Source: Neotamlana nanhaiensis
Lineage (GTDB): Bacteria > Bacteroidota > Bacteroidia > Flavobacteriales > Flavobacteriaceae
Direction of reading: 5' to 3'
Assembly: GCF_000943555.1 (NCBI RefSeq)
Contig: NZ_JTDV01000001.1
Coordinates: forward strand, 372,001-436,000
Length of the DNA: 64,000 bases
The translations under genes and the position numbers were made by a program. This document shows, piece by piece, positions 4,721 through 54,950 of the stretch (position 1 is its first letter; every line of letters begins with the position of its first letter). The notes under the pieces were generated by a model that saw only the letters and a program-made list of their open reading frames with translations, had not been told where the DNA came from and ran no database searches.

Positions 4721-5017
4721 CTATTTTGCTGGTGGAGGTCGGCAAAATAAAGTGTAGTTAGTATGATTTGGCTCATACTGAAATGTGTAAGTGCCTATAA
4801 GTTTATTACAAAAATCAACCCTGTCATATTGCAATGATGTATAAGTACCATTACAAACAAAGAGTGCACTATTAGCTACTATTACATACTCACAAAGATT
4901 ACAATGATCTTGATTATCAAAATCATTATCATGAGCTAAGGCATGTAAACCACAAAGTTTAACACTAATAAAAAATATTAGATAAAAAAGAGCAAAATGT
5001 GATTTAAACTTGTCCAA
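4721..5017 (-). CDS. Small secreted Cys/His-rich protein, possible metal binder
   Basis: A 98-residue protein that I cannot assign to a named family. A hydrophobic N-terminus (residues 7-22) looks like a signal peptide or anchor. It is followed by HALAHD (25-30) and DHCNLCEY (37-44), giving H25, H29, D30, H38, C39 and C42 as candidate metal ligands. Three further Cys (55, 70, 92) lie in the C-terminal half, and the protein ends in CRPPPAK. This pattern of an early His/Cys cluster and a terminal Pro run resembles small periplasmic proteins found near metal or TonB-linked transport genes in Bacteroidota. It is codirectional with the ABC exporter, 114 bases upstream of the ATPase. A role in metal handling with that exporter is inference from motifs and position. 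Confidence 0.68.
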   Translation of the reverse strand: MDKFKSHFALFYLIFFISVKLCGLHALAHDNDFDNQDHCNLCEYVIVANSALFVCNGTYTSLQYDRVDFCNKLIGTYTFQYEPNHTNYTLFCRPPPAK

Positions 5018-47353: not shown

Positions 47354-49066
47354 TTATTCTATGATTTGTTTTACTTCTCCGCAAGTTAACATGGCATCAC
47401 CAAAATATGGATTTCTTATTTGTTTTTCTTTACTTAACCAATATGCACCTTTATCGCTATTTGCCATCGGGCAATATTCTACAAAAACAGTTTCATTTAT
47501 GCCGAATGATTTTATAGCACGAATCATGTTATCTGATAATACTTTAAAATGATTACGTTGTATTTTAATATCGGAAGCTTTAGAAATTTCTTGTGAAGCT
47601 GCTTTTATGTCATTTTGTAATATCATCCAATAATTGTGAGCATCACCTTTTAATAACTCCATATTAATATGACTTAAATTCTGCAACAATGCATTGATTT
47701 CTTCTTTGGTTTGCTTAACATCATCGGCAACTAATGCATCTTTTACCTTAATATAATTGTTGTATACGATATTTAGTTCGTGTTGAAACGCTACAGGCGA
47801 TTCTAAGCGATTTGAAAAATCTTCTCCAGAGTCACTTTTATTAAGATTATTCATCATCGATTTTTTTCCTTGCAATTGCGCTGCCGCATCTACTGTAAAC
47901 GTACCATTAGTAACGATTTCGCTTCCGGAAACTAAGCCGTTTAAAATTTCGTAATTGCTGCCTATTTTATTTCCTAGTGCTACTTCTTTCATTTCAAAGA
48001 TTGGTGCATTAGGTTGGGACTTCACATAAACCACCGAACGTTCTCCCGTCCAAAGTACAGCCGATGCTGGCACAAGCAATGTAGCTTCACTCCTATTATT
48101 TACAGCTTCAATTTTTGCGGAAACAAACATTCCGGGTTTAAAAACAGCGTCCTTATTATTTAACTGGACGCGTAGATTTACCGTTCGCGTTTTAGAATTT
48201 AAAACAGGATCGATAAAATCAACCACACCACTAAACGTTTTATTAGCAAACGCTTTGGTATAAACGTTTACCGATTGCCCTTTTTTGAATAGACTGATTT
48301 GATTTTCGTAAACATCAAAATTTCCCCAAACAGTATTTAAATTTGCAATTTTGAGTAATGTTTGTCCTTGTTTTATATAATCGCCTTCGGCAACTAATTT
48401 TTCGGTTACAGTTCCTGAAACAGTTGCGTAAACGGGAAAATTCTCAATGACTTTACTTGTTGTTTCAATGTTGTTGATTTGATTTTCGGAAAGTTTCCAA
48501 AGCTTCAACTTATTTCTTACCGCTTTATATAATGCTGATTGCGACGCTTTTAAGGAAGCCGCAGTAATTAATTCTTGCTGAGCTGCATATAATTCTGGCG
48601 AATAAATAGTTGTTAATAATTGGCCTTTACGGACTTCTTCTCCTGTAAAATTTATATTTAGTCGCTCAATTCTTCCTGAAAAATAACTGACTTGCACCGC
48701 ATTTTCTTCTTCGTTTTCGGCAATTTTTCCCGATAAGGTAATGCTATCATTTTCAGCTCCAGCCATTCCAACTACCGTGGTTTGAATGTTTGCCAAAGCC
48801 ATGGCATTGGGTGTTAATTTAAATTGATTAGCGGTTAAACCATCCGCACCAGCTTCAGCAGGAATTAAATCCATGCCACAAATGGGACAATCTCCAGGTT
48901 CTGGTTGCATAATTTGTGGATGCATTGAGCAAGTCCAAAGTTGCTTGGTATGCGCTTGATCTTGATGCTCATGCGAAGGATTTTCGTTTGATGAACCACC
49001 AAAAAAGAGCCATCCTAAAAACACGCCAACAATTAGAATAATAAAATATATGCTATACTTTTTCAT
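47354..49066 (-). CDS. cusB: CusB-type periplasmic adaptor of heavy-metal RND efflux
   Basis: A 570-residue adaptor with an N-terminal membrane anchor (about 5-22). A heavy-metal-binding domain follows at about 43-72 (WTCSMHPQIM, GDCPICGMDLIP; C46, C60, C63). The membrane-fusion body (about 75-400) contains the lipoyl/barrel segments GKIAENEEENAVQVSYFSGR, TVSGTVTEKLVAEGDYIKQG and VLVPASAVLWTGERSVVYV-like strands. A C-terminal DUF3347-type helical domain (about 410-520) and a closing CPMANSDKGAYWLS / IRNPYFGDAMLTCG segment add further potential Cu ligands. It links the CusA pump to the CusC channel and hands over periplasmic metal. It begins 1 base after the HMA-MauE gene. Cu/Ag specificity is inferred from the family. 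Confidence 0.92.
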   Translation of the reverse strand: MKKYSIYFIILIVGVFLGWLFFGGSSNENPSHEHQDQAHTKQLWTCSMHPQIMQPEPGDCPICGMDLIPAEAGADGLTANQFKLTPNAMALANIQTTVVGMAGAENDSITLSGKIAENEEENAVQVSYFSGRIERLNINFTGEEVRKGQLLTTIYSPELYAAQQELITAASLKASQSALYKAVRNKLKLWKLSENQINNIETTSKVIENFPVYATVSGTVTEKLVAEGDYIKQGQTLLKIANLNTVWGNFDVYENQISLFKKGQSVNVYTKAFANKTFSGVVDFIDPVLNSKTRTVNLRVQLNNKDAVFKPGMFVSAKIEAVNNRSEATLLVPASAVLWTGERSVVYVKSQPNAPIFEMKEVALGNKIGSNYEILNGLVSGSEIVTNGTFTVDAAAQLQGKKSMMNNLNKSDSGEDFSNRLESPVAFQHELNIVYNNYIKVKDALVADDVKQTKEEINALLQNLSHINMELLKGDAHNYWMILQNDIKAASQEISKASDIKIQRNHFKVLSDNMIRAIKSFGINETVFVEYCPMANSDKGAYWLSKEKQIRNPYFGDAMLTCGEVKQIIE

Positions 49067-49067
49067 T

Positions 49068-49799
49068 TTAAAAAATTAACATTAATACCGCCATAACAAT
49101 CATAATGGCATTTTCAATAAGTGTAGCCTCCGTCATTGGTAATTTAAGCACTGTACCCAAACAAGCGCAACGAATGGCTTTTTTATCAAGCAAGGTTTTT
49201 GTTACTCCAATGGTTGTTATTCCTAAAATAACTAAGGTTATAATTAATGCCAGTTCAATTTGAAATCGCATTAAAAACATTAGTCCTAATGCAGTTTCTA
49301 AAAACGGATAAATTTTACCGTAAATAGGTACGCGTTTTGCCAACGGATCGTACATACTAAACGACTCTGGAAATCCTTTTAAATCTAGCATTTTAAAAAA
49401 GCTGAAAACGATGCAAAATAATCCCATAAAATCTAGCATAAATGCCGACCAAGACCAATTTTTATAATGCAACAACACACTAGCAGAAACGATATAAAAA
49501 ATAATAAGTAACAACGGTTTTAACTGTTGCAACTTACTTTCTTTGCTTTCTGCAGGCATGCTCATGGCGTTTGATGATTCAAAAACATTGCGTTCTTTTT
49601 TCTCTGTTATCTGGTATTTTTCGGGTAATGCTTTTTGTAAATCTTGGGTTGAAATATGCGAACTCATTGTTATTTCGGCTTCACCCTTTTCTAGATTTAC
49701 CGCAACATCGGTTACGCGATCTAAAGCGGTTAAGTTTTTTTCTACCGAAGCTTTGCAACCATTGCAGGTCATTCCCGTTATATTATATGTATATGTCAT
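49068..49799 (-). CDS. HMA domain fused to MauE/DoxX-like membrane protein
   Basis: A 243-residue fusion. Residues 1-70 are an HMA metal-binding domain (YNITGMTCNGCKASVEKN; C12 and C15) ending in YQITEKK. After a linker, about 90-243 form a four-span membrane domain of the MauE/DoxX type, with KMLDLKGFPESFSMYDPLAKRV, IYPFLETALGLMFL and KKAIRCACLGTVLKLPMTE, where C-A-C is a potential redox or metal site. Such fusions are regular members of Bacteroidota CusABC-type loci and probably move metal or redox equivalents at the inner membrane; the mechanism is not established. It lies 3 bases after the CusC gene and 1 base before cusB, in one operon. Confidence 0.88.
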   Translation of the reverse strand: MTYTYNITGMTCNGCKASVEKNLTALDRVTDVAVNLEKGEAEITMSSHISTQDLQKALPEKYQITEKKERNVFESSNAMSMPAESKESKLQQLKPLLLIIFYIVSASVLLHYKNWSWSAFMLDFMGLFCIVFSFFKMLDLKGFPESFSMYDPLAKRVPIYGKIYPFLETALGLMFLMRFQIELALIITLVILGITTIGVTKTLLDKKAIRCACLGTVLKLPMTEATLIENAIMIVMAVLMLIF

Positions 49800-49802
49800 G
49801 TT

Positions 49803-51038
49803 TTACTGAATTAAATAATTTATAATTGTGCTTTGTTTGTAATATGTTTTTACCGCTTCAATTTGATTTATTTGAAATTTAAGCTGTAACTCTTGAATAT
49901 CTAGAACATCATTAAAATTTATAGTGCCCGTTTCGTAGCTTTTAATAAGAATTTGTTCAGCATCTTTGGCCTGATTCAGATTTTTTAAAGCCGTTTGATG
50001 ACTTATTCTTGCTGAAATGCGTTCGTTTTTAGCTTGAGACAACACCGTTTTTAACGTGTTTAATCGTGCTTGTTTTTGATAATTAATTTCCTGCTGTTCG
50101 AGTTCGTTTTGTTTAGAAACCGATTTATACTTTTTATTGAAAATAGGAATTGAAACCGACACCATAGGCATTAGAATATCCTTACCATTATCGGAAAAGT
50201 TAATATCTGGTCGTGGCGACACATTTATATAATCTATCCCAAAACCAATCATCGGGCTACTTTCTTTTTGATTTAACAGTTCTGATTTTTCAATGGATTC
50301 ATACAATTTATCATACTTTAAAAGCTCTGGATGAATAGATAAATCATTAATGTTTAAATCAAAATCTTCCGTAGGAATCGTTAAACTATCAACTACATTT
50401 ACGGCAACTGTAGTTTCTCTATTTAAAAGATTATTTAGACCGTTTTCTTCTGCCAAAAATTGCTGATGCAAAACTGCTTTTAATTGCTCCATATCGTTTT
50501 GTCTCATTTGTAAACGCAGCACATCAACCGCTGATGCTTGACCAACCTCAACCGAGGTTAGCGCCATGGTTTCGTAGGTTTTTAATAACGCTATATTTTC
50601 TGCTAGAACCGCCTGTTTTGCTTTATTCGCATATAAATTATAATACGATTGTGCCACCGAGGCCATGAGTTTACGTTTGATTATAATAATATCTTGATAT
50701 TTTGCATCGGCCAATGAGGTTACATAAGCTTCACGCGATGTAATTGTGCCAAACCAAGGCAACATTTGTTTTGCTGAAACTTTAAAACGTTGCGCGCCTG
50801 TTCGGGTTTCTGGCTCGCTAACAAAATAACCGACACCAAATTCTGTATTAGGCATAGTGTTGACTTCATTTACCTTTTCGGAAGCCCTTTTGTACTGCAA
50901 TTCGAACTGCTGAATTTCAGGATTATTCTGCAAAGCTTCATCGATTAATAGTTTTAATTCTTGAGCATTGACAACTGAACACAGCAAACAAAAACCAAGT
51001 ACCAGAACCAATTTTATATGTTGTGATTTATGCTTCAT
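49803..51038 (-). CDS. cusC: TolC-family outer-membrane channel of metal efflux (CusC-like)
   Basis: A 411-residue outer-membrane factor. I start it at MKHKSQHIKLVLVLGFCLLC (51038), a proper signal peptide ending VNAQ; the open frame continues 18 codons upstream into the pump gene. The body has the two TolC-like helical repeats: LLIDEALQNNPEIQQFELQY, SYYNLYANKAKQAVLAENIALLKTYE and EVGQASAVDVLRLQMRQNDM, then KQARLNTLKTVLSQAKNERI and YETGTINFNDVLDIQELQLK. It forms the exit duct for the RND pump. Its start overlaps the 3' end of the cusA-like gene by 11 bases, so translation is coupled. Confidence 0.9.
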   Translation of the reverse strand: MKHKSQHIKLVLVLGFCLLCSVVNAQELKLLIDEALQNNPEIQQFELQYKRASEKVNEVNTMPNTEFGVGYFVSEPETRTGAQRFKVSAKQMLPWFGTITSREAYVTSLADAKYQDIIIIKRKLMASVAQSYYNLYANKAKQAVLAENIALLKTYETMALTSVEVGQASAVDVLRLQMRQNDMEQLKAVLHQQFLAEENGLNNLLNRETTVAVNVVDSLTIPTEDFDLNINDLSIHPELLKYDKLYESIEKSELLNQKESSPMIGFGIDYINVSPRPDINFSDNGKDILMPMVSVSIPIFNKKYKSVSKQNELEQQEINYQKQARLNTLKTVLSQAKNERISARISHQTALKNLNQAKDAEQILIKSYETGTINFNDVLDIQELQLKFQINQIEAVKTYYKQSTIINYLIQ

Positions 51039-54000
51039 TTTGATTTTTTTTAAGTTGAAATTCCGCTTTCCAGCTATATAAAACAGGCACAATAAAATAG
51101 GATGTTACATCGATTATCATACCGCCAAAAATGGGAATTGACATGGGTATCATAATATCACTGCCTTTTCCTGTTGATGTTAAAACAGGCAATAATGCTA
51201 AAATGGTCGTTACTGTTGTCATTAAACAAGGACGAATACGTTTTGAAGCTGCTTCTAAAGTTGATGCTCGTATTTCTGAAACTTTTAATGGCGCATTTGC
51301 TTTAAAAGATTGTGTTAGGTACGTTGCCATAACGACACCATCGTCTGTAGCAATGCCGAACAAGGCAATAAAACCAACCCAAACGGCAACGCTTAAATTA
51401 ACCGTTTTCATGTTAAACAGTGTCCTGATATTTTCACCAAAAACACTAAAATTTAAAAACCAATCTTGTCCGTAAAGCCAAATCATAACAAAACCACCTG
51501 CAAAGGCCACTGCAATACCAGAAAACACCATTAATGTGGTTGACACCGAACGAAATTGAAAATAAAGAATTAAAAAGATGACCAACAAAGCTAACGGTAC
51601 AATAACAGCTAAGGTTTTTTCAGCGCGCAACTGATTTTCGTAGGTTCCTGTAAAATTATAGGTTATTCCTTTGGGTACGATTAATTCACCTGAATCAATA
51701 TGTTGCTGAATGAGTCTTTGGGCATTTTCTACAACATTAACCTCTGCAAAACCATCTAATTTATCAAACAACACATAACCAACTAAAAATGTGTCTTCAC
51801 TTTTAATAACCTGTGGCCCTTGTTCGTATTTTATCGTTGCCAATTCACTCAATGGCACAGGACTTCCGTTAGCTACTGGAACGTAAATCTGCTGTAAATC
51901 GGTTGGATTTTCTCGTAAACCTCTTGGGTAGCGCACGCGAATAGCATAACGCTCTCTACCTTCAACCGTTTGGGTTAATGGCATGCCACCAACGGCTACT
52001 TTTAAAACATCTTGAACCGTTTCCACACTTACACCATATCGTGCTATATTTTCTCGATTTATATCGATTAGCAGATAAGGTTTACCCACAATTCTGTCGG
52101 CAAAAACGGCTTCTTTTTTTACACCTTCGGCTTGTTTTAAAATAGTTTCTAACTGCATGCCAAAGGCTTCAATGGTTTTTAAATCTTGACCTTTTATTTT
52201 TATACCCATTGGCGCACGCATACCAGTTTGTAACATTACCAAGCGGGTTTCAATAGGCTGTAATTTTGGTGCGGAAGTCACTCCTGGTAATTTGGTAACT
52301 CTTACAATTTCGTTCCAAATATCGTCTGGTGATTGTATTTCGGGTCGCCAGTTTCGGTAGAATTCGCCGTTGTTGTCTTCGATTAGTTGAGACTTTTCAA
52401 TATTTAACAGCCTTGATTCAATAACCGCTTTGTTCTCGACTGCGCTCGAACTGACAGCTACATTTTCATTATAAATTAATCTGCCATCTTTCAATTCATA
52501 TAAACCATCTTCATTTACTTTATAACGTTGCCGTTCACCTTGCGCATTCAACATATATTCTGGTTTATATTGAATAATATTTTCGTACATGGATAAAGGT
52601 GCTGGATCAAGAGCCGATTCGGTTCTACCTGCTTTTCCCACCACGGTTTCAATTTCTGGAATGCTTGCAACCGCCATGTCTAATTGTTGTAACACGCGTT
52701 TATTTTCTTCAACTCCGGCATGAGGCATCGATGTTGGCATCAGTAAAAACACTCCTTCATTTAACGATGGTATAAACTCTTTTCCTGTGTTTTTATAGAT
52801 GAAAAAACCAAATATTAAAAGCGTAACAGGTATTGTTAAAAACAATAATCTGTTTGCCAATGCCCATTTTAAAATTCGCGTGTAATAACGCTTAAAGAGC
52901 GAAAATGCACCTAATAACCCGAGGCAAATTACGGCTACGAAAATCAAGTTCAACAAAATGCTTTTATCTACACCTAAAGGTCGCCAATACGCTGCTAACA
53001 AAAAGACTATCGCTATTGCCGAAATAATTATTTCTCCATTTTCTAATTGACCTAAAGGAAGAAAACGATAGCGTCTATACAAATGAAGCAATCCAAACGC
53101 AACTAAAACTAAACCTAACCAATAACCATAAATTATTATGGCGATACCTAAAACTATTAAAATACCGTTTAAGACTAGCGAAACGCGTATTTTCACCTGA
53201 ATTTTTCGGAATAAAAACGCTGCAAACGGCGGAATTAAAAATAAAGCGATTACCAATGAAGCTATTAACGCAAAGGTTTTGGTAAATGCTAGCGGACGAA
53301 ACAACTTTCCTTCGGCTCCTATCATGGTAAAAACAGGAATAAAACTGATGATTGTCGTCATAACCGCAGTAACAATAGCTCCAGATACTTCAGCGGTAGC
53401 TTTATAAACGATTTTATTTATTGTGTTTTGACTATTTTTTTCAGAAGCAAGATTCTGAGATTCATTGTCACTTGTTCCTTGTTCTGCTAATTTTTCATTT
53501 TCATCTAAATGCCTAATAATATTTTCCGATAGGATAACACCAACATCAACCATGGTGCCTATGGCAATCGCAATACCTGATAACGCCACAATATTGGCAT
53601 CAACATTAAAAAGTTTCATAGCAATAAACACCATTAAAACGGCAACTGGCAATAAACCTGAAATTAAAACCGACGCCCTCATATTGTAAACCATAACAAT
53701 AATCACCAAAATGGTTATTAGAATTTCGAGGGTTAACGCTTCATTTAAAGTGCCAAGGGTTTCATTGATAAGCGCTGTTCTGTCATAAAACGGCACAATA
53801 GTAACTTGCGAAGTTGAACCATCTGCCAATGTCTTTGTTGGTAATCCTGCACTTAGTTCGTTTATTTTTGCCTTTACATTATTAATTACCTCTAACGGAT
53901 TTGCACCATATCGCGCCACAACCACACCGCCTACAACTTCAGCGCCTTCTTTATCTAAAATACCTCGTCGCGCTGCTGGTCCTAATGTCACTTTTGCTAT

Positions 54001-54834
54001 GTCTTTTATTTTTATTGGTGTAAAATCTTCTGAAGCCACCACAGCATTTTCAATATCTGATATCGACTTAACATAGCCCAAACCACGCACCAAATACTCG
54101 GCTTGGTTAATCTCTAAAGTTTGCGCTCCAATATCTCGATTGCTTTCCTTTACAGCCTTCACAACCTGATTTAAACCAACGTTATATTGGCGCATGAGCT
54201 CTGGATTGACGTCCACTTGATACTCTTGAACGTAACCACCAATTGAAGCAACTTCGGACACCCCACTTGCTGAAGATAATGCGTATTTCACATAGTAATC
54301 TTGAATGCTACGCAATTCGTGTAAATCCCAACCACCGGTGACATTGCCTTGCTTATCGCGCCCTTCTAGAGTGTACCAAAATATTTGCCCTAAACCTGTC
54401 GCATCTGGTCCTAGCGAAGGATTTACACCTTCTGGCAATAAACCACTTGGTAATGCATTCAGTTTTTCGAGAATACGGCTGCGGCTCCAGTAAAATTCGA
54501 TATCTTCTTCAAAAATGATATAGATACTCGAAAACCCAAACATAGATGAACTACGAATCGTTTTAACTCCAGGAATACCCAGTAATGATGTGGTTAACGG
54601 ATAGGTTATTTGGTCTTCGATATCTTGTGGCGAACGACCATCCCATTTGGTAAATACAATTTGCTGATTTTCGCCAATATCTGGAATAGCATCAACGGCT
54701 ACAGGGTTACTTGGTAAAAAGCCAGTATCCCAATTAAAAGGCGCATTTACAGTTCCCCAGCCTATAAAAAGAACCAGTAATAAAACCGCAACGAGTTTAT
54801 TTTCTATTAAAAATTTGATGCTTTTGTTTAGCAT
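51028..54834 (-). CDS. cusA: CusA/CzcA family heavy-metal RND efflux pump
   Basis: A 1268-residue RND pump, about 200 residues longer than E. coli CusA. I start it at MLNKSIKFLIENKLVAVLLL (54834); the frame is open for 24 codons upstream without conserved sequence. Landmarks are GWGTVNAPFNWDTGFLPSNPVAVDAIPDIGENQ, the first periplasmic porter domain, IAIGTMVDVGVILSENIIRHL with the proton-relay Asp of TM4, MTTIISFIPVFTMIGAEGKLFRPLAFTK and a C-terminal FGIATDDGVVMATYL. Extra sequence lies in a linker near 460-490, in a membrane-rich insertion at about 548-655 (four or more spans) and in a periplasmic loop near 790-835. The last contains a REP-like DNA element (52432-52456). It heads the structural set just after the HYC_CC_PP gene. 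Confidence 0.93.
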   Translation of the reverse strand: MLNKSIKFLIENKLVAVLLLVLFIGWGTVNAPFNWDTGFLPSNPVAVDAIPDIGENQQIVFTKWDGRSPQDIEDQITYPLTTSLLGIPGVKTIRSSSMFGFSSIYIIFEEDIEFYWSRSRILEKLNALPSGLLPEGVNPSLGPDATGLGQIFWYTLEGRDKQGNVTGGWDLHELRSIQDYYVKYALSSASGVSEVASIGGYVQEYQVDVNPELMRQYNVGLNQVVKAVKESNRDIGAQTLEINQAEYLVRGLGYVKSISDIENAVVASEDFTPIKIKDIAKVTLGPAARRGILDKEGAEVVGGVVVARYGANPLEVINNVKAKINELSAGLPTKTLADGSTSQVTIVPFYDRTALINETLGTLNEALTLEILITILVIIVMVYNMRASVLISGLLPVAVLMVFIAMKLFNVDANIVALSGIAIAIGTMVDVGVILSENIIRHLDENEKLAEQGTSDNESQNLASEKNSQNTINKIVYKATAEVSGAIVTAVMTTIISFIPVFTMIGAEGKLFRPLAFTKTFALIASLVIALFLIPPFAAFLFRKIQVKIRVSLVLNGILIVLGIAIIIYGYWLGLVLVAFGLLHLYRRYRFLPLGQLENGEIIISAIAIVFLLAAYWRPLGVDKSILLNLIFVAVICLGLLGAFSLFKRYYTRILKWALANRLLFLTIPVTLLIFGFFIYKNTGKEFIPSLNEGVFLLMPTSMPHAGVEENKRVLQQLDMAVASIPEIETVVGKAGRTESALDPAPLSMYENIIQYKPEYMLNAQGERQRYKVNEDGLYELKDGRLIYNENVAVSSSAVENKAVIESRLLNIEKSQLIEDNNGEFYRNWRPEIQSPDDIWNEIVRVTKLPGVTSAPKLQPIETRLVMLQTGMRAPMGIKIKGQDLKTIEAFGMQLETILKQAEGVKKEAVFADRIVGKPYLLIDINRENIARYGVSVETVQDVLKVAVGGMPLTQTVEGRERYAIRVRYPRGLRENPTDLQQIYVPVANGSPVPLSELATIKYEQGPQVIKSEDTFLVGYVLFDKLDGFAEVNVVENAQRLIQQHIDSGELIVPKGITYNFTGTYENQLRAEKTLAVIVPLALLVIFLILYFQFRSVSTTLMVFSGIAVAFAGGFVMIWLYGQDWFLNFSVFGENIRTLFNMKTVNLSVAVWVGFIALFGIATDDGVVMATYLTQSFKANAPLKVSEIRASTLEAASKRIRPCLMTTVTTILALLPVLTSTGKGSDIMIPMSIPIFGGMIIDVTSYFIVPVLYSWKAEFQLKKNQNEA
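52432..52456 (-). repeat. REP-like palindromic element within cusA coding sequence
   Basis: The core TCGA-CTGCGC-TCGA with flanks GTTC and ACTGACA matches a short palindromic repeat widespread in intergenic DNA of Flavobacteriaceae. Here it is read in frame and codes AVSSSAVENKA, in a periplasmic loop that looks longer than in related pumps. Confidence 0.65.
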
Positions 54835-54950
54835 TGCTTTTTGAATTTTAGTAGTAAGTACAAAATATAGCGTACACGATTTGCGCTTTATCGAGCGATA
54901 AAACACAACATTCCTGAATCCTTTATGGATTAGGAATTATCTACTAAAAA

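Follow-up and report, generated by a model that had tools for sequence, protein, structure and literature searches.

Introduction

Among described repeat systems, the closest to the element treated here is the superfamily of CGTC-tagged REPs (Di Nocera et al. 2013, PMC3733652). In the sections of that paper on which we draw, these units are palindromes with an unpaired end tag, CGTC, often TGTC (or CCTC), a stem of 8-9 bp in which AT is almost invariable in the first two positions, a loop of 4-5 bases and a tail that is mostly CCA. Head-to-head dimers predominate, with no dedicated transposase. According to the same sections, the superfamily is present in Bacteroidetes, G. forsetii being among the positive species; intragenic in-frame units occur, and two Xanthomonas species carry different REPs in recB at about the same position. 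Two further systems are related by their effect on proteins. The Rickettsia palindromic elements (Ogata 2000, 2002; PMC10969869), of about 150 bp and with a conserved peptide, lie in frame in unrelated protein genes, and the enterobacterial RU repeats (Delihas 2007; PMC2759123), which are MITE-like and 103-168 bp long, supply open frames that join annotated proteins, as described in the cited parts of these sources. In-frame palindromic elements are already known, both as Rickettsia elements and as intragenic REPs.

Here we describe a REP-like unit that is read in frame within a cusA gene of Neotamlana nanhaiensis, an observation that the present analysis confirmed. As with the Rickettsia elements, a palindromic element lies in frame within protein genes; unlike them, as far as the cited text describes them, the unit has 25 bp, lies mostly outside long ORFs and is concentrated in one cusA loop. 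The locus resembles the RU repeats in that small intergenic repeats turn into protein sequence, and differs from them in its shorter unit and in its single hot-spot loop, of which the cited part of that source reports none.

Results

A REP-like unit in the coding sequence of cusA

The window, i.e. the whole 64-kb stretch of DNA that was analysed, contains the following features.

51028..54906, minus strand: cusA ORF as listed (1292 aa, GTG start), RND heavy-metal efflux pump
52354..52557, minus strand: lineage-specific periplasmic loop, CusA residues 784-851, a hot spot for repeat units, placed by alignment with E. coli CusA; its class varies between orthologues
52432..52456, minus strand: complete REP-like unit that encodes approximately VSSSAVEN; on the gene strand it has tag TGTCA, arms GTTC/GAAC and core GAGCGCAGTCGA
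52436..52449, no strand assigned: 14-base core TCGACTGCGCTCGA, with 6 copies in the own genome
52452..52456, minus strand: unpaired tag that ends the unit (TGTCA in the direction of the gene), recognised from tag counts and arm pairing in the genome copies
52420..52431, minus strand: 12-base stretch at the place of the dimer spacer, with the same offset as in orthologue L044
52396..52419, minus strand: place of the second, inverted dimer unit known from orthologues L044 and L095, with no recognisable repeat in the window

The cusA product matches the Pfam family ACR_tran (PF00873, E 9e-184) and the E. coli CusA chains of the PDB (best E 2e-187); by this domain and its homology to solved CusA, it is a predicted CusA-type heavy-metal RND pump. 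Judged from the sequence, its true start is likely the internal ATG at residue 25 (MLNKSIKF). The ORFs at 47354-51092 resemble, in a reading of the ORF list, MFP, heavy-metal-associated and outer-membrane partners.

On the plus strand, positions 52432-52456 read GTTCTCGACTGCGCTCGAACTGACA, 25 bases with the structure GTTC-TCGACTGCGCTC-GAAC-TGACA; on the minus strand, the unit is read inside AVSSSAVENKA of cusA. The sequence and position that the original prediction had given for this element were exact, and the in-frame reading was confirmed: the unit codes in a periplasmic loop and leaves the frame unbroken. E. coli CusA aligns up to residue 783 and again from residue 852, a single residue replacing 784-851. 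The loop is thus missing from E. coli CusA. Its excess length is not a fixed 25 residues: across 81 loops the length varies from 50 to 88 residues, with 58 in the commonest class and 69 in the window. An AlphaFold model of residues 706-1085, built on a 32-row alignment, was weak (mean pLDDT 65). The loop blocks flanking the unit reached 80-86 and the two unit-holding blocks 54 and 50, low values that are at most compatible with a predicted flexible loop tip.

The unit belongs to a dispersed repeat family

In the 64-kb window, the 14-base core occurs once (chance expectation 0.06 at up to 2 mismatches), so that its repeat nature is visible only at the genome level. Pattern searches were carried out in the own genome (4.02 Mb, 37 contigs), each pattern being paired with a reversed-pattern control. 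They gave 6 matches for the 14-mer, 38 for TCGACTGCGCTC and 53 for TCGACTNCGCTC, against 0 for the reversed control every time. The core is therefore a dispersed palindromic repeat, situated mostly outside long ORFs as predicted. By their 42-base context, 51 of the 53 TCGACTNCGCTC places are distinct, and the remaining two derive from a doubled contig. This contig (C2) has 377,790 bases, exactly 2 x 188,895, a spacing at which its repeats reappear (loci L170 and L171); in the single stretch compared, its halves are identical at 4896 of 4896 bases. It can be read either as a doubled contig or as a circular replicon read twice, and on either reading it inflates repeat and gene counts.

The 51 distinct copies share GAGCGNAGTCGA by construction of the search. 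Outward from the core, the arm positions 1 to 5 form Watson-Crick pairs in 50, 49, 45, 43 and 33 copies, against shuffle means of 38, 26, 15, 18 and 31. None of 500 shuffles reached the observed pairing at positions 1-4, and 110 of 500 did so at position 5, which is not significant. The arms thus covary: there are 19 different four-base arms, and GTTC, the arm of the cusA unit, is present in 2 of the 51 copies. Position 6, the first base outward of the arm and the last base of the tag, pairs in 1 of 51. The tag position holds TGTC or CGTC in 36 copies, with TGTCA in 31. Next to the tag, the first stem position is A-T in 31 of 51 and the second is variable, and the core end bases G and A are unpaired. 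Seven pairs of copies lie less than 100 bp apart; read by hand, six are head-to-head with the tags outside and one is tail-to-tail. Across the family, TCGACTGCGCTC was found in 84 of 149 genomes, and its reversed control was absent from all 149. The unit thus belongs to a REP-like repeat family of Flavobacteriaceae that forms hairpins and carries a TGTC tag.

Compared with the CGTC-tagged REPs, as these appear in the sections cited above, the family has in common the unpaired TGTC/CGTC tag and the dominance of head-to-head pairs. It differs in its stem, which covers about 5 positions and whose covarying arms enclose a fixed core of 12 bases, and in having no CCA tail, the commonest three bases after the arm being CTT (9 of 51) and TTT (8 of 51). 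The unit is therefore REP-like and close to the CGTC/TGTC-tagged superfamily, but its stem and tail do not match the description in that source. Unlike the GTAG REPs mobilised by RAYT, it carries the tag TGTC, and a search of its genome for PF01797 (Y1_Tnp) gave no match. RAYT was rejected as the mobiliser: PF01797 is present in 16 of 34 genomes with at least 10 cores and in 42 of 115 others (Fisher p 0.32; 149 family genomes, counted by hand), a coarse test of RAYT, as PF01797, the one family searched, also covers IS200-type transposases.

The exact 25-base unit also lies in a metagenomic viral contig, IMGVR_UViG_3300022693_003285 (L251:13214-13238), where it stands last in an open frame of 95 codons. 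It is read there in the same frame as in cusA (FVSSSAVENALFTEA), and this is the sole contig with the exact 25-mer among the viral contigs searched.

Coding copies in other genes

Six of the 51 copies lie in long ORFs, spread over five genes, and the other 45 lie outside; a long ORF had 150 aa or more in one scan and 120 aa or more in another, shorter ORFs being left aside. At random, about 48 of 51 would be expected in ORFs if the coding share of the window, roughly 0.95, is applied, an estimate that is high because this share counts ORFs down to 60 aa. Core copies in two further loci (L025 and L027) lie in long open frames but upstream of the first start codon, and they were left uncounted as coding. 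The copies of this repeat, called class A below, are distributed as follows.

cusA: one copy
IcmF-like mutase, 1185 aa (L166, 3736-7290, minus strand): two inverted copies
2-hydroxyacid dehydrogenase, 331 aa: one copy
GatB-AspS fusion, 1123 aa (L167, 4311-7679, minus strand): one copy, in a linker
PNPOx-like protein: one copy, beginning 17 residues before the protein end

The six coding copies are read as xSAVE in four cases and as STAL/STTL in two. The insert regions correspond to breaks or gaps in PDB relatives (mutase residues 487-557, dehydrogenase about 276-295, CusA 783-852). A C beside the core, which gives no stop codon in any frame, is found in 7 copies, 3 of them in genes, and a T in 44, of which 3 are in genes; that stop-free C-type units are commoner in genes (Fisher p 0.028) is suggestive only, the comparison being post hoc and the numbers small.

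For the dehydrogenase, 10 of 30 loci had a readable segment. It is SSSSAVEM in the own gene, and three genus sisters have DTSGAVEM with equal length and without the exact core; in six other genera, the segment differs in sequence and has 43-54 residues versus 50. The IcmF cores are confined to the own gene (segment readable in 16 of the 25 loci examined, L191-L215). By eye, a GTTCAGGATGACA-type repeat end stands beside the two units of the mutase, in the stretch missing from PDB relatives, and L192 holds an apparent decayed version of this insert (NVTLDTIERS, EEILRQAQHDN). In the GatB-AspS fusion, the linker carrying the A unit (LSAVE) comes after the GatB domain and before the OB fold.

Several repeat classes occupy the loop of CusA orthologues

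The cusA sample comprised 91 loci with 88 different protein rows, 11 from relatives (second pieces L052 and L065 left out) and 80 of at least 573 relatives in named genomes. The loop was read by anchors in 81 loci and seen in 8 of the remaining 10; L124 and L147 stayed unread. Allowing 1 mismatch, the A core gave 21 matches, 20 of them inside the loop, and the reversed control 2, of which one falls in the L120 loop. For a second pattern, B, with 3 mismatches allowed, 10 of 12 matches lay inside the loop, and its control gave none. A third pattern, D, gave 2 matches at up to 2 mismatches, both in the loop and counted without a control. A generic TGTCA-hairpin scan over the cusA loci returned nothing informative.

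Taken together, a recognisable unit is present in 30 of 91 loops: A in 17 (nine with SSSAVEN), B in 10 (the assignments of L097 and L120 being weak), D in 2 and E in 1. Class E (L105), known solely from its fold and by eye, folds as a dimer at -27.7 kcal/mol; the second D-like unit of L138 was likewise recognised by eye. Orthologues with and without the element thus both exist, and those that carry the peptide have the same DNA for it, so that the peptide is not shared through unrelated sequence. Six cusA loops (L043, L044, L076, L091, L093 and L095) carry the 25-mer without a single difference, and the fourfold sites upstream of the loop are 31-35% identical among L043, L044, L091 and L095.

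A complete inverted dimer, SSSAVEN...ISTALNVT, is found in L044 (identical to L093) and in L095; in L044, dimer and spacer span about 61 bp. Between L044 and L095, the second unit is identical at 24 of 24 bases and the spacers differ. The window has an intact left unit. At the place of the second one, identity to this unit is 10/24, a value that is also the median for the 72 loops lacking SAVE; a decayed second unit was considered there and dropped, as 10/24 is no better than in loops without a unit. In L073 and L091 the identity is 14/24, against a maximum of 13 among these 72 loops.

In the 8 searched genomes of 9 that host B, the B 15-mer is single-copy, at cusA, in 7, and the eighth has no exact copy. 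B was therefore ruled out as an abundant repeat of its hosts, and the B units did not come from such a repeat; a wider B pattern is repeated in other genomes (9 of 296 genomes of the order). The long B pattern had no match in the viral-contig scan. The B-type pattern TCATTGCGAG...GTGGCAATCT occurs at 7 places in the own genome of the window (6 when the doubled contig is counted once), so that more than one hairpin-type repeat class coexists there. At up to 1 mismatch, class D is found beyond its cusA copy at 4 places in one host genome (G030) and at none in another (G029), and it has no match at all in the genome hosting class E (G031).

Loop classes are incongruent with the gene tree

A tree of the 91 cusA rows was built with the loop columns removed (quick LG+G4; 26 of 85 inner branches open, with a warning on two outgroup rows), and recombination elsewhere in cusA could distort it. 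The loop classes had been set from the loops before the tree. On this tree, the 10 B rows need 10 changes, of which starred branches force at least 5, and the nine A-pair rows need 7, of which they force at least 6. In AU tests, a single clade was rejected both for the nine A-pair rows (p 2.7e-10) and for a B set (p 5.7e-6) that had been trimmed, after the tree, from ten rows to eight with near-identical loops. Not forming one clade also fits one old insertion followed by many losses.

The sharpest case is independent of the tree. L105 and L106, near-identical CusA genes of two Lacinutrix, have different repeat-derived loops, of class E and class B respectively, and make a suitable natural pair on which a loop swap can be tested. 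Over the five blocks that precede the loop, their identity is 94-98%; it drops to 42% in the loop block, is 88% in a block of 42 bases that contains the loop end, and is 94-100% in the six blocks that follow. Against the distant L096, L106 is 94% identical in the loop block, versus 70-87% in the five blocks before and 62-88% after, and 61 of 66 bases around the B unit are shared. With the seven other B loops, L097 and L120 left out, 59-62 of 66 bases are identical, DNA outside the unit included. The sister pair L105/L106 shows one clean replacement, with a tract of about 60 bp swapped.

A plasmid search for close cusA genes gave 7 plasmid records at E 1e-60 or better, with a best identity of 60%, and these 7 records provide no evidence of recent plasmid spread. 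Within the genus, one member (G002) has no close CusA (best E 4.7e-25), and the CusA proteins of two others (G001 and G003) do not group near the own CusA in the tree; from these sequences, the cus locus looks mobile within the genus.

Discussion

We consider it probable that palindromic units became coding in a tolerant CusA loop, which is hypervariable and probably flexible, and that the loops then spread by short-tract recombination. The loop would look like a site at which repeats land and turn into protein. Palindromic units, single or as head-to-head dimers, would now and then end up in the CusA loop. They would be tolerated if the frame is stop-free (here xSAVE, or STAL for the inverse unit) and the site lies outside the conserved fold. 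Short-tract homologous recombination via the conserved flanks would then carry the loops from one cusA gene to another across genera, and with such exchange the loop class does not follow the gene tree. In this scheme, we infer how the units moved (the PF01797 search gave no mobiliser), in which direction events ran and whether the peptide is neutral or useful. The window copy would have arrived by exchange and not by fresh insertion. The original prediction saw in it a mobile repeat inserted into the gene: a repeat is indeed coding there, but a jump into this particular gene is not required, since the unit is half of an inverted dimer in two relatives and the loop classes are scattered over the cusA tree, a distribution that suggests loop exchange among cusA genes. 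One feature stands apart from this account, as a simple tract copy does not explain how L044 and L095 share both dimer units with different spacers.

This same feature speaks for repeated independent insertion, in which a trans-acting enzyme would target the same loop site, perhaps with an older unit as its target, without any gene exchange. The presence of four classes in one loop fits such targeting, and the IcmF-like gene likewise holds an inverted pair. Against it, L043, L044, L091 and L095 have the GTTC/GAAC arm in common, an arm that 2 of the 51 own-genome copies carry among 19 types, and the B loop of L106 matches seven others also outside the unit. The search for PF01797 gave no match in the own genome, and in the 149 family genomes its presence shows no link to copy number. 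We regard this route as possible but unlikely.

Vertical descent appears less probable still; here an old insertion would have survived in part of the lineages, with loss or decay elsewhere, under a nucleotide-level constraint on the unit. It would account for the apparently decayed units (e.g. L045, L046, L123) where L075, L078 and L130 have near-intact ones, and for the dehydrogenase segment, of equal length in all four genus members although three are without the exact core. It does not sit well with an identical 25-mer across genes of low fourfold identity, nor with near-sister genes that have different loops, and the pair L105/L106 already tells against it; the AU rejections also weigh against it, within the limits of a quick tree and a B subset chosen after it. 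Finally, that an ordinary CusA peptide matches the repeat by chance or codon use, as the single core within the window might suggest, can be set aside with near certainty: the genome search refutes it, the tag, complementary arms and core fit the pattern of 51 distinct genome copies, and orthologues without the unit exist.

Under the preferred reading of tolerated units spread by loop exchange, we think that the loop peptide is more probably carried along as a tolerated passenger than kept by selection, and the term "domesticated", used at first in the sense of selected for function, is not supported. A bolder reading, which we put forward tentatively and with more doubt than confidence, is that the CusA loop acts as a diversity cassette: repeats of several classes would serve as raw material and tracts of about 60 bp would be passed between genera, a changing exposed loop being perhaps favoured by escape from phages or bacteriocins or by the fit to partner proteins.

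In the accessible text of the open-licence papers searched, we found no description of the CusA case, of intragenic Bacteroidetes REPs, of Flavobacteriaceae palindromic repeats or of in-gene repeats of this kind, nor does the part of PMC12306157 that was available describe such a case. What may be new is the combination of four repeat classes at one hot spot with loop swapping between genera, by which the locus also differs from the CGTC-tagged REPs as described in the cited sections; a flavobacterial case may already be listed among the intragenic REPs of PMC3733652.

For annotators, the practical meaning is that such loops diverge from the gene tree. Intragenic REPs are known mostly gene by gene, and one loop with at least four classes, seemingly moving between genera, makes the usefulness of repeat-derived protein directly testable. 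The orthologues form a natural series, in which some loops are empty, others hold a fresh unit, an apparently decayed one or a different repeat, so that the passage of a noncoding repeat into protein becomes datable and testable. If the diversity-cassette reading is true, the repeats would be a standing source of new protein surface, beyond passengers.
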